Assembly: GCF_040529335.1 (NCBI RefSeq)
Contig: NZ_CP159534.1
Location: forward strand, 1,984,001 to 2,048,000
Length of the DNA: 64,000 nucleotides
Source of the DNA: Streptomyces sp. HUAS MG91
Lineage (GTDB): Bacteria > Actinomycetota > Actinomycetes > Streptomycetales > Streptomycetaceae
Direction of reading: 5' to 3'
Numbering within the stretch: the first letter of the stretch is position 1; every line of letters begins with the position of its first letter. The translations under genes were made by a program, and so were the position numbers. Below the pieces are notes generated by a model that was given only the letters and a program-made list of their open reading frames with translations, was not told the DNA's origin and searched no databases. Of this stretch, positions 38,689-44,345 are shown one piece after another.

Positions 38689-39921
38689 TCAGAGCGCGGC
38701 GGCGGCGGGCTTCACCATCCCCCGCACGGTCCGCGACTTCACGAAGTCGCCCATCGCGGTCATCTCCCACTCACCGCTGAACTGCTTGATGAGCTTGGCC
38801 ATCATGACGCCGGTCTGCGCCTCGGCGTTCGTGAGGTCGAAGCGGACCAGCTCCTCGTCCGTCGCCGCGTCGACCAGGCGGCAGTACGCCTTGGCGACCT
38901 CGGTGAACTTCTGGCCCGAGAACGAGTTCACCGTGAAGACCAGGCCCGTGACGTCCTGCGGGAGGCGGCCCAGGTCGACGACGATCACCTCGTCGTCGCC
39001 GCCGCCCTCACCCGTGAGATTGTCGCCCGAGTGCTTGATCGCGCCGTTCACGATCGACAGCTTGCCGAAGTAGCAGCTGTCCACGTGGTTGCGCTGCGGC
39101 CCGTACGCGATGACCGACGCGTCCAGGTCGATGTCCTTGCCCCGGTAGGCGGGCTCCCAGCCGAGGCCCATCTTGACCTGGCTCAGCAGCGGCCGGCCGC
39201 CCTTGACCAGGGACACCGTCTGGTTCTTCTGGAGGGAGACCCGCCCCTTGTCCAGATTGATCTTCCCGGCACCCGGGGCGGGGGCCGGCGGCGCGGGCGG
39301 CGCGGCGGGAGCGGCGGTCTGCGGCGGGGGCGGCGCGATGCGCGGGTCGACCGGCGGCGTGGTCGGCGGGGGCGGCGACGTCACCGGAGCGGCCGGAGCC
39401 GGGGCGGGCGCGGCCTCCGGCTCCTCGACGGAGACGCCGAAGTCGGTGGCGATGCCCGCCAGCCCGTTCGCATACCCCTGGCCCACCGCGCGGGCCTTCC
39501 ACGCGCCGTTCCTCAGGTACACCTCCATGACCACCAGCGCCGTCTCCGTGCCGAGCTGCGGCGGGGTGAACGTGGCGAGGACCGAGCCGTCGTCCGCGTT
39601 CCGGATCGTGGCCGTGGGCTCGATGCCCTGGAACGTCTGGCCTTCTGCGTCCGGGCTCGCGGTGACGACGATCTTCTCGATGCCGGGCGGCACGGCCGTG
39701 GTGTCCACGGTGATCGAGTCGGGGGACGTGCCCCCGCCCGACGCGTACGTCACACCGGGCCCGGCGGGCTGGTTGTAGAAGATGAAGTCGTCGTCCGAGC
39801 GCACCTTACCGTCGGCGGTGAGCAGCAGGCCCGAGACGTCGAGCCGCACGGGAGCGGTGACGTCCACCGCCACGCGCTGGGCCGTGAGCGGGATGTTCGA
39901 ACCGGGGGTCATAGCGGTCAT
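38689..39921 (-). CDS. Tandem TerD-domain protein (tellurium-resistance/stress family)
   Basis: 410 residues: two TerD domains joined by a Pro/Ala-rich linker (about residues 170-215). The first runs from VRLDVSGLLLTADGKVRSDDDFIFYNQPA to YLRNGAWKARAVGQGY. The second runs from RVSLQKNQTVSLVKGG through GLGWEPAYRGKDIDLDASVIAYG to DVTGLVFTVNSFSGQKFTEVAKAYCRLVD. The acidic calcium-binding positions (SDDDF, DIDLDAS, GGGDDE) are present. TerD proteins act in cytoplasmic stress complexes. The fused form resembles the TerF/CABP-like proteins. Start at 39921, with a nearby alternative ATG at 39912. The function in this strain is unknown. Confidence 0.92.
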   Translation of the reverse strand: MTAMTPGSNIPLTAQRVAVDVTAPVRLDVSGLLLTADGKVRSDDDFIFYNQPAGPGVTYASGGGTSPDSITVDTTAVPPGIEKIVVTASPDAEGQTFQGIEPTATIRNADDGSVLATFTPPQLGTETALVVMEVYLRNGAWKARAVGQGYANGLAGIATDFGVSVEEPEAAPAPAPAAPVTSPPPPTTPPVDPRIAPPPPQTAAPAAPPAPPAPAPGAGKINLDKGRVSLQKNQTVSLVKGGRPLLSQVKMGLGWEPAYRGKDIDLDASVIAYGPQRNHVDSCYFGKLSIVNGAIKHSGDNLTGEGGGDDEVIVVDLGRLPQDVTGLVFTVNSFSGQKFTEVAKAYCRLVDAATDEELVRFDLTNAEAQTGVMMAKLIKQFSGEWEMTAMGDFVKSRTVRGMVKPAAAAL

Positions 39922-42266: not shown

Positions 42267-43844
42267 CTACATCCAGGGCCAGTCCGCGTCCCGCCCGGCC
42301 TCGAGCAGCGCCACCATCCGGAACGCCGCGTCCGAGAGCCCGCCGAACGCGTGCCGGTTCGCGGAACCGGAGGGCGCGTGGCCCGCCCGGTACCCGGCCA
42401 GGTTCCAGGTGTAGACCGGGACCCGCGCCGGGACCTGCCCGGTCGGGTCGCCGTGCCGGCTGTAGTGCGCCTGCTCGTCGGTGACGATCAGCACCCGGTC
42501 GTGGCCGCGGTAGTGGCGCCGGACCGCCTCGGCGGTGTTCGTCCCGCCCAGGTCACCGAAGCGCTCCAGGACCTTCAGGACGGACTCGCCCTTGCGGTAC
42601 ATCACGTCCGTGCTGCCCGTGCCGAACTGCACCAGGTCGGCCCGCTCCGCCCGCAGCGCGAGCGCCGCGCCGAACACGGCGGCCGCGTCCGCCCGGTTGA
42701 GCCGCGACCGCTCGGACAGCGGGCTCCACATGGAGCCGGAGCGGTCCACCAGGATCAGCGAACGGCCCTTCAGGGACGGCACGTTGGCCAGCGAGTGGCC
42801 GAGCGCCGTCTCCAGCGGGTACGCCCAGCGCAGCGACGGGGCGTGCTGGTACGCGGCGAGGTAGCGGAACGGGAACTGCCGCGAGCGCGCCACCTCGGCC
42901 GGGTCGGAGATCCTGGCGGCGACCCGCGCCGCGACCTCGTCCGAGACGCCCGCCTCGTCGAAGTTGCGCAGGTTGCGGATCAGCGCCATCGCGCCCATGG
43001 ACGGGATCACGGCCTCCCAGGCCGCCTTGTCCATCGGGCCCTGGAGCCAGCCCGCCAGCGCCTCCCACGTCACACCCGCCGCCGCGAGCCGCTCGGCGCC
43101 GTCGGGCGCGAGCAGCACGGAGCGCCGCTCGGCGACCGGCAGGGCCATCAGCTCCCGGTGGGCGCGCAGGACGTCGCTGCCCGCCGGGGGCACGGCCGTG
43201 TCGGGGTGGTGGCGCCGGTCGAGGGCGTACCGGAACAGCTCGCCCTGCCACGGCTTGGCCGGGTCGGGCGCCGCGTGCACCAGGTTGAGGACGTCGCCGA
43301 AGCGGTAGCCCTTGGACGCGGTGTCGTACTTCAGGAGCGCCTTGCCGTGGTACAGGTGCCGCACGGCGTCGGCGATGCCGCGCTTGACCGGCTTGGGGAC
43401 GGCACGCCCGTACGTCTGCGTCCAGTAGCCGAGCAGCTCGCCGGGCTCGTCGGGGCGGCGCAGCACGGAGCCGACGACCGCCCGGTTCGACGGCCCGTCG
43501 CTCGCGCCGGCGTCCAGGCGTGCCTTCACGTACTCGGCGGCGCCCACGACCGACGCCGTACGCATGTTGCCCTCGCCGCGCAGCCAGCCGAGCAGGCCCG
43601 CGGTCCACTCCGGGTCGCTCACGGCCAGCCCGCGCACGAGCGCGGCGAACCGGTCGTCGCGGTCCGCGCCGTCCTCGTAGAAGGTGCGCTGGGAGACGAA
43701 GTTGGCGACGGCGAGCAGGAAGAGCTCGGAGCGGGCGTCCCGCTCGAAGCCGGCGCCGCCCTCGTGCGTGCGCACGGTGCGGCCGGTGGTGCGGACGACG
43801 GAACGCAGCGCCTGCTTGGCGCCCTTGCGGTTGTAACGAGCCAT
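42267..43844 (-). CDS. Ro60/TROVE-domain RNA-binding protein
   Basis: 525 residues. Residues 20-355 form the TROVE HEAT-repeat ring (FVSQRTFYEDGADRDDRFAALVRGLA, LLGWLRGEGNMRTASVVGAAEYVKARL, IRNLRNFDEAGVS are typical). The C-terminal von Willebrand A domain has an intact MIDAS: D-R-S-G-S near 365, GGTNTAE near 425 and VTDEQ near 455. In animals and in Deinococcus, Salmonella and mycobacteria, Ro proteins bind Y RNAs and misfolded RNA; in Deinococcus a Y RNA tethers Ro to PNPase for RNA degradation. Here about 400 bp immediately upstream on the same strand hold three Y-RNA-like modules. The ATG at 43844 has GGGGGGA as its ribosome site, lying in the loop of an AGAATTC/GAATTCT inverted repeat. 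Confidence 0.95.
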   Translation of the reverse strand: MARYNRKGAKQALRSVVRTTGRTVRTHEGGAGFERDARSELFLLAVANFVSQRTFYEDGADRDDRFAALVRGLAVSDPEWTAGLLGWLRGEGNMRTASVVGAAEYVKARLDAGASDGPSNRAVVGSVLRRPDEPGELLGYWTQTYGRAVPKPVKRGIADAVRHLYHGKALLKYDTASKGYRFGDVLNLVHAAPDPAKPWQGELFRYALDRRHHPDTAVPPAGSDVLRAHRELMALPVAERRSVLLAPDGAERLAAAGVTWEALAGWLQGPMDKAAWEAVIPSMGAMALIRNLRNFDEAGVSDEVAARVAARISDPAEVARSRQFPFRYLAAYQHAPSLRWAYPLETALGHSLANVPSLKGRSLILVDRSGSMWSPLSERSRLNRADAAAVFGAALALRAERADLVQFGTGSTDVMYRKGESVLKVLERFGDLGGTNTAEAVRRHYRGHDRVLIVTDEQAHYSRHGDPTGQVPARVPVYTWNLAGYRAGHAPSGSANRHAFGGLSDAAFRMVALLEAGRDADWPWM

Positions 43845-43898
43845 GAGAATTCCCCCCGAATTCTTGAGATGCGCACAGGGGGAGGCACAGCGAATGGA

Positions 43899-44040
43899 GC
43901 GTGCCCGAGGTCGGGAATCGACGACGGAAACAGTCTGGTGCTCTCGCCATTTGAGCTACGGCGACCCGAAGTCACCGACGGGATTCGAACCCGCAACCGC
44001 CAGTTCCAGGAAGTACCCGTTGTCTGCGCACCGGGCACAC
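43899..44040 (-). ncRNA. Y RNA module 2 with circularly permuted tRNA-like domain
   Basis: Read leftward, the ends pair: GUGUGCCC (44040-44033) with GGGCACGC (43906-43899), one wobble. Next come GGU paired with ACC, a 2-nt UC bulge on the 3' strand, one bulged G, and CG/CG. An inner helix GACAACGG/CCGUCGUC follows with one mismatch. The apical part is tRNA-like but rearranged: T-arm first (GCGGG, TTCGAAT loop, CCCGT), then the acceptor 3' strand CGGTGAC. A UUCGG linker joins this to the acceptor 5' strand GTCGCCG, then TA and the D-arm (GCTC, AAATGGC-type loop, GAGC). All 7 acceptor pairs form, one as G-U. This is the published layout of bacterial YrlA-type Y RNAs. It ends 54 bp before the Ro start codon. 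Confidence 0.85.
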
Positions 44041-44050
44041 ACCATCTGCT

Positions 44051-44129
44051 GCGCCTCCCGAGATCAGACCGGCCACGGCGTCGGTTTCTTGTCGAGAGAA
44101 GGAGCCGTGGCCTTCGCACCGGGAGGTGC
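44051..44129 (-). ncRNA. Y RNA module B without tRNA-like domain
   Basis: A 79-nt segment between modules 1 and 2 repeats the same Ro-binding-stem pattern. CCUCCC (44126-44121) pairs with GGGAGG (44059-44054). Then GGU pairs with AUC, a UC bulge lies on the 3' strand, a bulged G and a CG/UG pair follow. The centre is a perfect 9-bp stem GGCCACGGC/GCCGUGGCC with a 24-nt loop and no tRNA features, recalling YrlB-like Y RNAs. A local hairpin (CTTCGCACC with GGTGCGAAG, 44133-44112) competes with the outer helix, so folding depends on where the RNA is cut or started. Confidence 0.65.
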
Positions 44130-44142
44130 GAAGAATGCATGC

Positions 44143-44281
44143 GTCCAGAGATCGAGGCCGGCGGAACCGACGGATGGTGCTCTGCCACTGAGCTACACCG
44201 GCTCGAAATGCCGGCGGCGGGAATCGAACCCGCGGCCTCCCCATGATGAGTGGAAGTAGGTCCTGCCTGTCGCACCTGGAC
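44143..44281 (-). ncRNA. Y RNA module 1 with circularly permuted tRNA-like domain
   Basis: Ends GUCCA (44281-44277) and UGGAC (44147-44143) pair. Then GGU pairs with AUC, with the same UC bulge on the 3' strand, the bulged G, and CGA/UCG. The apical domain runs T-arm (GCGGG, TTCGATT loop, CCCGC at 44233-44217), acceptor 3' strand CGCCGGC, 7-nt ATTTCGA linker, acceptor 5' strand GCCGGTG, TA, D-arm (GCTC, AGTGGCA loop, GAGC ending at 44179). All seven acceptor pairs form, one as U-G. The stem sequences differ from module 2 while pairing is kept, which is covariation evidence. There is no anticodon arm; the Ro-binding stem takes its place. Confidence 0.85.
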
Positions 44282-44288
44282 AAGAACG

Positions 44289-44294
44289 ACTGTA
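44289..44294 (-). promoter_or_regulatory. Possible -10 box of the Y RNA / Ro transcript
   Basis: TACAGT on the minus strand ends 7 nt before the 5' base of module 1, the spacing expected for a housekeeping promoter. No clear -35 is visible (CTGGCA at 19 bp is the best candidate). Confidence 0.4.
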
Positions 44295-44345
44295 CGGCGG
44301 CGCGCATCAGCCATGCCAGGCATTTATTTTGCGAGAGTTCCCCGC

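Follow-up and report, generated by a model that had tools for sequence, protein, structure and literature searches.

The 400 nt preceding the ro60 gene of Streptomyces sp. HUAS MG91 probably form a tandem array of Y-RNA modules, a leader that would be cut into separate Y RNAs associated with Ro60, with tRNA-like heads available to other partners. The array consists of three modules, M1, M2, and M3 (Table 1), whose positions refer to the window, i.e., the whole 64,000-nt stretch of DNA that was analyzed. Its main feature, overlooked in the preliminary description of this DNA, is the tRNA mimicry of M1 and M3: judging by their sequences, the heads of these two modules are circularly permuted tRNAs, with the T arm followed by an acceptor-like stem capped by a short loop and then by the D arm.

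Table 1. Features of the ro60 locus and of the upstream module array (window positions)
Feature	Position	Strand	Sequence or detail	Evidence
ro (Ro60, Rsr) gene	42267..43844	(-)	525 aa	TROVE; vWA match under its cut-off
Palindrome with presumed Shine-Dalgarno sequence of ro	43847..43863	(-)	GAATTCGGGGGGAATTC	
M3, Y-RNA module whose permuted tRNA-like domain is of the open YrlA type	43899..44040	(-)		Rfam, covariation
M3 D arm	43940..43956	(-)		Rfam alignment
M3 acceptor-like stem	43959..43977	(-)	CGGTGAC / GTCGCCG, closing loop TTCGG (43966-43970)	
M3 T arm	43978..43994	(-)	GCGGG-TTCGAAT-CCCGT	Rfam alignment, covariation
M2, short Y-RNA module without tRNA-like domain	44054..44126	(-)		Words, helix pattern, covariation
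M2 alternative hairpin	44112..44133	(-)	CTTCGCACC-TCCC-GGTGCGAAG; would sequester the M2 GGTGCG word	
M1, Y-RNA module with permuted tRNA-like domain including anticodon arm	44143..44281	(-)		Words, Rfam, covariation
M1 D arm	44179..44193	(-)	GCTC-AGTGGCA-GAGC	Rfam alignment, covariation
M1 acceptor-like stem	44196..44216	(-)	CGCCGGC / GCCGGTG, closing loop ATTTCGA (44203-44209)	Covariation
M1 T arm	44217..44233	(-)	GCGGG-TTCGATT-CCCGC	Rfam alignment, covariation
M1 anticodon arm	44239..44255	(-)	TTCCA-CTCATCA-TGGGG; 5 bp, 7-nt loop, "anticodon" CAT	
-10-like element	44289..44294	(-)	TACAGT, 7 nt upstream of M1 as delimited here	
Promoter-like element	44315..44326	(-)	TAAATGCCTGGC (TTAATTCGCTCGCC in many orthologues)	Consensus across 76 loci, with the -10-like word as anchor

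The ro60 gene and the three modules

The gene starting at 43,844 is a genuine Ro60, as the preliminary description had it. Its product contains a TROVE domain (51.5 bits, against a Pfam cut-off of 23), and a profile built from 12 relatives matches the solved structures 2nvo (Deinococcus Rsr), 1yvp (Ro), and 9nen (RO60) with E values of 5e-9 to 3e-7. The predicted structure, in which confidence is modest (mean pLDDT 64.7), has 13 fold matches at E <=0.001, all of them to Ro60/TROVE entries. On the side away from ro, the module array is flanked by a divergent amino-acid permease gene. A TerD-domain gene is found 3' of ro60 (38689-39921), and no rtc gene was seen among the few window neighbors checked.

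All three units that had been drawn on the minus strand, with the words GGUGCG and AYCUC and pairing terminal helices, are indeed present there. M1, M2, and M3 each have GGTGCG toward their 5' end and A[CT]CTC toward their 3' end, and the outer strands pair as GTCCA/TGGAC in M1, CCTCCC/GGGAGG in M2, and GTGTGCCC/GGGCACGC in M3; paired ends combined with conserved words are what is seen in the basal stem of bacterial Y RNAs. In mononucleotide shuffles of 90 upstream regions (20 each), one such word-and-helix unit appeared in 6/1800 sequences and two in 0/1800. The two words are constant among the three window units, but AYCUC varies in M1 orthologues, which may have AACTC or TTCTC instead, and the spacers, given earlier as 13 and 10 nt, come to 16 and 13 nt by the module boundaries used here. 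The identification of these units as Y-RNA modules beside Ro60 is upheld by their conservation, covariation, and co-occurrence with Ro60, together with the subthreshold matches of M1 and M3 to YrlA described below. The apical part opens with the word T[AC]CTTC in 49/50 M1, 67/67 M2, and 66/67 M3 modules (182/184 in all).

Because free folding of lone modules gave weak z-scores (-1.5 for M1 and -1.2 for M3) and the minimum-energy structure of the entire leader is a different global fold, comparative evidence was used. The M1 alignment includes 23 of 50 modules (25 were picked for diversity; L050 and L055, in which the anticodon arm is shortened or missing, were removed, which biases this alignment in favor of that arm), the M2 alignment includes 44 of the 45 picked from 67 (the degenerate L035 was removed), and the M3 alignment includes 24 of the 36 picked from 67 (8 of the 12 removed had a Leu-type D arm). 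In M1, at 86% mean column identity, 99.3% of the cells are paired and there are 13 double-changed pairs, with 0/500 shuffles reaching any of the five measures; M3 has 96.7% of its cells paired, 19 double-changed pairs, and 84 double-changed cells (0/500 shuffles); and M2 has 97.7% paired, with 3 double-changed pairs that were reached by 17/500 shuffles and further pair types reached by 342/500, all these controls allowing only partly for relatedness. Orthologue covariation supports M1 and M3 and, weakly, M2. The tRNA-like arms contribute most of this support, together with the inner helix and the outer helix of M3; double-changed pairs in the outer helices number 1 in M1, 0 in M2, and 4 in M3.

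Several details of the proposed fold had to be revised. The differing terminal helices of the three units, initially taken as covariation within one locus, belong to paralogous units and so do not represent covariation. Across aligned homologues, the terminal helix does covary in M3, with its four pairs, but those of M1 and M2 are nearly invariant. The UC bulge, which would follow from pairing GGU with AYC, is tentative: the middle pair of GGU:AYC is broken in 7/23 M1 and 3/24 M3 orthologues, whereas a rival register that pairs GG with both C residues of CUC is broken in 0/23 M1, 0/24 M3, and 1/44 M2 sequences.

An extended outer helix of M2 was considered as the cause of the conserved GCA that precedes this module and is, by eye, unlikely. 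As the 3' side of such a helix is less conserved and a competing hairpin, GCACC-N4-GGTGC, is kept in 62 of the 67 M2 modules, this alternative hairpin explains the conserved GCA better. It is possible that it serves as a folding switch or a processing site.

The tRNA-like heads of M1 and M3

In searches with the Rfam YrlA model (RF02553) at a permissive threshold, M3 scored 43.5 bits (E = 2.8e-8) with the whole model aligned, and M1 scored 33.5 bits (E = 2.2e-5) over the core of the model (positions 24 to 84). The gathering threshold of this family is 69 bits, so that by gathering score neither module is a member; at that threshold, Rfam gave no match in the window and none in 20 related loci, where the best YrlA score was 54.9 bits. 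YrlA of Salmonella is similarly located beside the Ro60/Rsr gene and similarly combines a basal stem with a permuted head that has T, acceptor, and D arms, and M3 aligns with all of it. Unlike YrlA, the modules described here score below the gathering threshold, lie upstream of ro, and are arranged in tandem, M1 has an extra closed anticodon arm, and a minority of M3 orthologues have a tRNA-Leu-type D arm. According to the review PMC8394870, the head of bacterial Y RNA resembles the D, T, and acceptor arms of tRNA.

M3, with its open head, fits the whole YrlA model, while M1 matches its core and has a closed anticodon arm; the structure line of the Rfam YrlA model contains no anticodon arm. 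Because it keeps this arm, which is not part of the known YrlA head, M1 has nearly the whole tRNA shape. In the window M1, the arm is located between TAC and the T arm, is followed by a 5-nt variable region, and has the canonical loop residues C32, U33, and A38. It can be parsed in all but two of 50 Streptomyces M1 modules: the loop of L050 is shortened, and L055 has no anticodon arm. All 48 loops start with CU and end with A, and 47 of them have U36. The "anticodons" are CAT, GAT, CTT, GTT, TTT, CCT, TCT, and GGT, with CAA in one loop, and the arm stems are TTCCA/TGGGG (39 modules), TTCGA/TCGGG (6), TTCCG/CGGGG (1), and variants differing in one 3' base (2).

A pooled set of 171 modules was compiled from M1, M3, the 15 unlinked copies described below, and 39 of the 55 M1-model matches in other loci. 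Of these, 168 could be parsed and 89 had the spacing expected for the arm (including 46/50 M1 modules, compared with 48/50 in the direct parse, as the pool parser misplaced a few M1 arms); 87 of the 89 pair at 4 or 5 of the 5 positions. Among 42 distinct arms, unfiltered for pairing, 201/210 cells are paired, whereas 1,000 permutations averaged 162 and never exceeded 174. The 87 closed arms have U33 in 86, A38 in 86, C32 in 81, and A or G at position 37 in 79 cases, while positions 34 to 36 vary. Conserved residues at 32, 33, and 38 and a purine at 37, around variable positions 34 to 36, are the signature of a tRNA anticodon loop. The constancy of U36, which would suit tRNAs of the t6A type, is confined to the Ro-linked Streptomyces M1 modules; in the pool, it is found in only 57/87 arms.

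When M1 was un-permuted, ARAGORN called a tRNA in 48/48 modules and in 0/480 whole shuffles. However, it still called a tRNA in 456/480 sequences in which the anticodon arm alone had been shuffled, so these calls back the D, T, and acceptor parts of M1 and not the arm. Un-permuted M3 was called in 24/24 cases, with a hand-chosen filler loop and without a shuffle control. As for functional tRNA genes, the permuted order, the capped acceptor stem, and an "anticodon" that varies among orthologues set these heads apart.

Other heads point to other tRNAs. The D arm TGGCGGAA is found in 17/67 M3 modules and, among the 58 distinct tRNAs of the host, only in tRNA-Leu. Many of these Leu-type heads also appear by eye to have an extra sequence resembling a variable arm, as in L008, L015, L017, L023, and L026 (all among the 17), and in that respect look like a class II tRNA mimic. 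The D arm TCGTCCAG is found in 12 of the 15 unlinked copies, which also carry a closed anticodon arm; in the host, TCGTC[TC]AG is found in tRNA-Glu only. Of the 15, 14 could be parsed and, when un-permuted, all 14 were called as tRNAs (shuffles, 0/140), these calls being as insensitive to shuffling of the anticodon arm as those for M1. Streptomyces thus has a series of heads: no tRNA part, open, closed with an anticodon arm, with a Leu-type D arm, and with a Glu-type D arm.

The permuted core of the M1 model is matched by tandem tRNA-Asn genes in the genome of this strain (G000 C1 2751619-2751769) with 57 bits and, as a full-length match, in G108 (L225 3034-3186) with 61.3 bits. Other partial matches of about 60 bits exist elsewhere, and the tRNA-Asn identity covers these two genomes. 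This match suggests that the permuted head was derived from neighboring tRNA genes.

Taken together, these features raise the possibility, which we consider tentative and on balance doubtful, that actinobacterial Ro60 Y-RNA arrays carry interchangeable, nearly complete permuted-tRNA heads (anticodon-bearing, Glu-type, and class II Leu-type) that probably came from tandem tRNA genes and were repeatedly remodeled, and that the anticodon arm is functional. If so, the arm would let the Ro ribonucleoprotein recruit, sense, or decoy enzymes that recognize whole tRNAs, for which heads with D, T, and acceptor arms alone would be insufficient; candidate readers would be t6A or pseudouridine enzymes, anticodon nucleases, and repair enzymes.

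Distribution in Streptomyces and other actinobacteria

Of 150 Streptomyces genomes, 84, including the one studied here, have a Ro60 relative. Upstream regions were compared in a set of 89, from which short fragments of Ro60 in G066, G125, and G132 were excluded and which includes a few regions shortened by contig ends (e.g., 292 nt in L007). The strict word-and-helix pattern detected three units in 15 of these regions, two in 44, one in 18, and none in 12. Nucleotide profiles derived from units of this kind detected the M1-M2-M3 order in 42 (in L025, with M3 in two pieces) and M2-M3 in 22, the remainder having M2 only (12), M1-M3 (4), M3-M2 (4), M1-M2 (3), M1 (1), or, upstream of a partial gene, no module (1). 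At least one module is therefore present in 88/89 regions, the position beside Ro60 that is typical of bacterial Y RNAs. In 80 named Streptomyces records drawn from 290, M1-M2-M3 was seen in 37 (one with M3 in two pieces), among them L248 from S. violaceoruber, and M2-M3 in 26; as the named records overlap with the first genome set, the two surveys are not independent. The tandem array, an arrangement that had seemed unfamiliar, is real but common in Streptomyces Ro60 loci and not peculiar to this strain.

Ten of the M2-only regions precede more divergent Ro proteins, whose alignment begins at residue 8 to 26. In L070 to L075 and L077 to L079, a second, more divergent Ro60 class is accompanied by a single M2-like unit with GATGCG in place of GGTGCG. 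Three loci of the M1-M3 type (L020, L026, and L041) contain a mini-M2 of ~32 nt, a Ro-type frame without an apical stem. G125 (L226) encodes Ro60 fragments only, and M2 and M3 are still present there.

Full-length matches to the M1 model of at least 63.9 bits, a cut-off picked after the list was seen, are found in 72/84 Ro60-bearing versus 0/66 other Streptomyces genomes, the next match in a non-Ro60 genome being the tandem tRNA-Asn genes of G108; such a match is missing from 12 of the 84. Fifteen of the loci found in Ro60-bearing Streptomyces (L210 to L224; 97.6 to 140.3 bits with the M1 model) are located away from ro60. Fourteen of these are single modules, and L212 consists of M2 followed by a module of the M1/M3 type. 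By eye and without a control, 13/15 have TANNGT just upstream and 13/15 a GC-rich hairpin just downstream. The 10 proteins encoded next to L210 to L215 revealed no common gene.

Across the class, a Ro60 relative was found in 52/394 genomes (22 of the 52 being Streptomyces) and in 20/137 genera. In 30 further loci, which include four more from Streptomyces (L177, L181, L206, and L207), the relaxed pattern detected at least two units in 15, one in 2, and none in 13, compared with one unit in 15/600 and two in 1/600 shuffles. The M1 model gave its 55 matches across 29 of these 30 loci, and closed anticodon arms are present in such actinobacterial loci as well. Two loci from other genera, L189 and L190, have five tandem units upstream of Ro60 by the pattern, four of which are also matched by the M1 model. 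A blastn search against plasmids and phages gave no match.

The leader, its processing, and its relation to known Y RNAs

The word TANVGT, chosen after the sequences were read, occurs 8 to 45 nt before the first module in 76/87 loci, compared with 5/608 background windows and 2/118 linkers, and its distance is the same in all but one of the 49 M1-first loci with the word (48/49). Where M1 is absent, this -10-like element precedes M2; 11/87 loci have no such word, and scans for sigma-70 promoters and terminators returned none in the window region. The presence of the element before the first module and its scarcity in linkers, along with the shortness of the linkers, suggest that a single precursor, reading into ro, is likely. 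The preliminary description had proposed one precursor, which these counts support indirectly.

We envisage that a putative conserved promoter upstream of M1 would drive a primary transcript M1-M2-M3-ro, in which the basal stem of each module, judging from its conservation and homology, would bind Ro60. M1 and M3 would display circularly permuted tRNA-like effector domains and M2 a simple stem. The most likely next step is cleavage of the leader at or close to the short linkers, which would release individual Y RNAs for association with Ro60; their tRNA-like heads may bind partners such as PNPase, as in Deinococcus. What is left would be the ro mRNA, whose ribosome-binding site would be enclosed in a hairpin. 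The best supported interpretation, by analogy, is that two tRNA-mimicking Y RNAs and one plain one serve the adjacent Ro60 and act like known bacterial Y RNAs, as a tether or a gate.

Alternatively, the array might stay uncut, in line with the second option of the preliminary description, one RNA with three Ro-binding sites. Such a long RNA would carry as many as three Ro60 rings along with several tRNA-like heads. The linkers are short and steady in length (15 to 24 nt between M1 and M2 and 13 to 16 nt between M2 and M3, by profile boundaries in the named records), and the promoter-like element is largely limited to the first module, all of which would be expected of such an RNA. However, a Ro60 tree of 80 rows (the window and 79 of the 80 named loci) requires at least 17 changes in the presence of M1, 7 in that of M2, and 4 in that of M3 (no shuffle control). 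As the modules vary singly and nearly all unlinked copies consist of a single module, one module seems to suffice, and we regard the uncut array as unlikely.

A slightly less probable alternative is that the region is mainly a cis-regulatory leader, with Ro60 binding the leader of its own mRNA to control translation and free Y RNAs being by-products. A distance of 54 nt separates the array from the ro start codon, and the presumed Shine-Dalgarno sequence lies within a palindrome, GAATTC..GAATTC, that is conserved in 49 of the 73 loci whose start could be aligned; when the leaders of the window and of two orthologues are folded, this Shine-Dalgarno sequence pairs with an upstream C-rich stretch. 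However, in none of the four leader folds does the stability clearly exceed that of the shuffles (z from -1.4 to 0.2), and a purely cis function leaves the copies away from ro60 unexplained.

That M1 and M3 are permuted tRNA genes or tRNA remnants processed into real tRNAs, as the ARAGORN calls on un-permuted M1 and the tandem tRNA-Asn matches might suggest, is very improbable, given nine different "anticodons" on so uniform a body, the insensitivity of those calls to the arm, and the Ro-type frame, link to Ro60, and acceptor cap loop, which indicate mimicry. Permuted tRNA genes of algae and archaea, in which the 3' half precedes the 5' half with a short joining loop between them, do give functional tRNAs; the modules share this order and the short loop but look like mimics.

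Several related systems are known from other bacteria. As described in PMC7790460, Salmonella has a Ro operon with two Y RNAs, rsr-yrlBA-rtcBA, in which, by the operon name, the Y RNAs follow rsr, whereas here they precede ro. In Deinococcus radiodurans, Ro60 is tethered to PNPase by Y RNA in the RYPER complex (PMC7790460, PMC4726728, and PMC8394870), and PMC4726728, citing Chen et al. (2014), describes an actinobacterial Y RNA bound by Rsr in Mycobacterium smegmatis. By analogy with these relatives, tethering of PNPase might be expected here too. M2 may correspond to YrlB, the type without a tRNA-like head. Chen et al. reportedly concluded in 2014 that each species has at least one Y RNA with a tRNA-like domain; in this genome, M1 and M3 have such a domain and M2 does not.

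Tandem or permuted-tRNA-like Y RNAs of Streptomyces were not found among the literature matches listed, and an earlier description is possible. With respect to the accessible literature, the conserved tandem arrays, the head with an anticodon arm, the heads of the Leu and Glu types, and the modules unlinked to ro60 are new, with some of them possibly in print, and they suggest that Y RNAs of bacteria mimic tRNA in more varied ways than that literature describes. Why Y RNAs mimic tRNA is a standing question, and a series of heads within one genus allows one to ask which part of the tRNA is read and by what reader, in a genetically tractable group of hosts. Covariance models also become feasible for Y RNAs that fall below Rfam's own threshold. 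A caution for annotation comes from ARAGORN, whose tRNA-Met at 44208-44280 is a false call inside a Y-RNA module, resulting from a misreading of M1.
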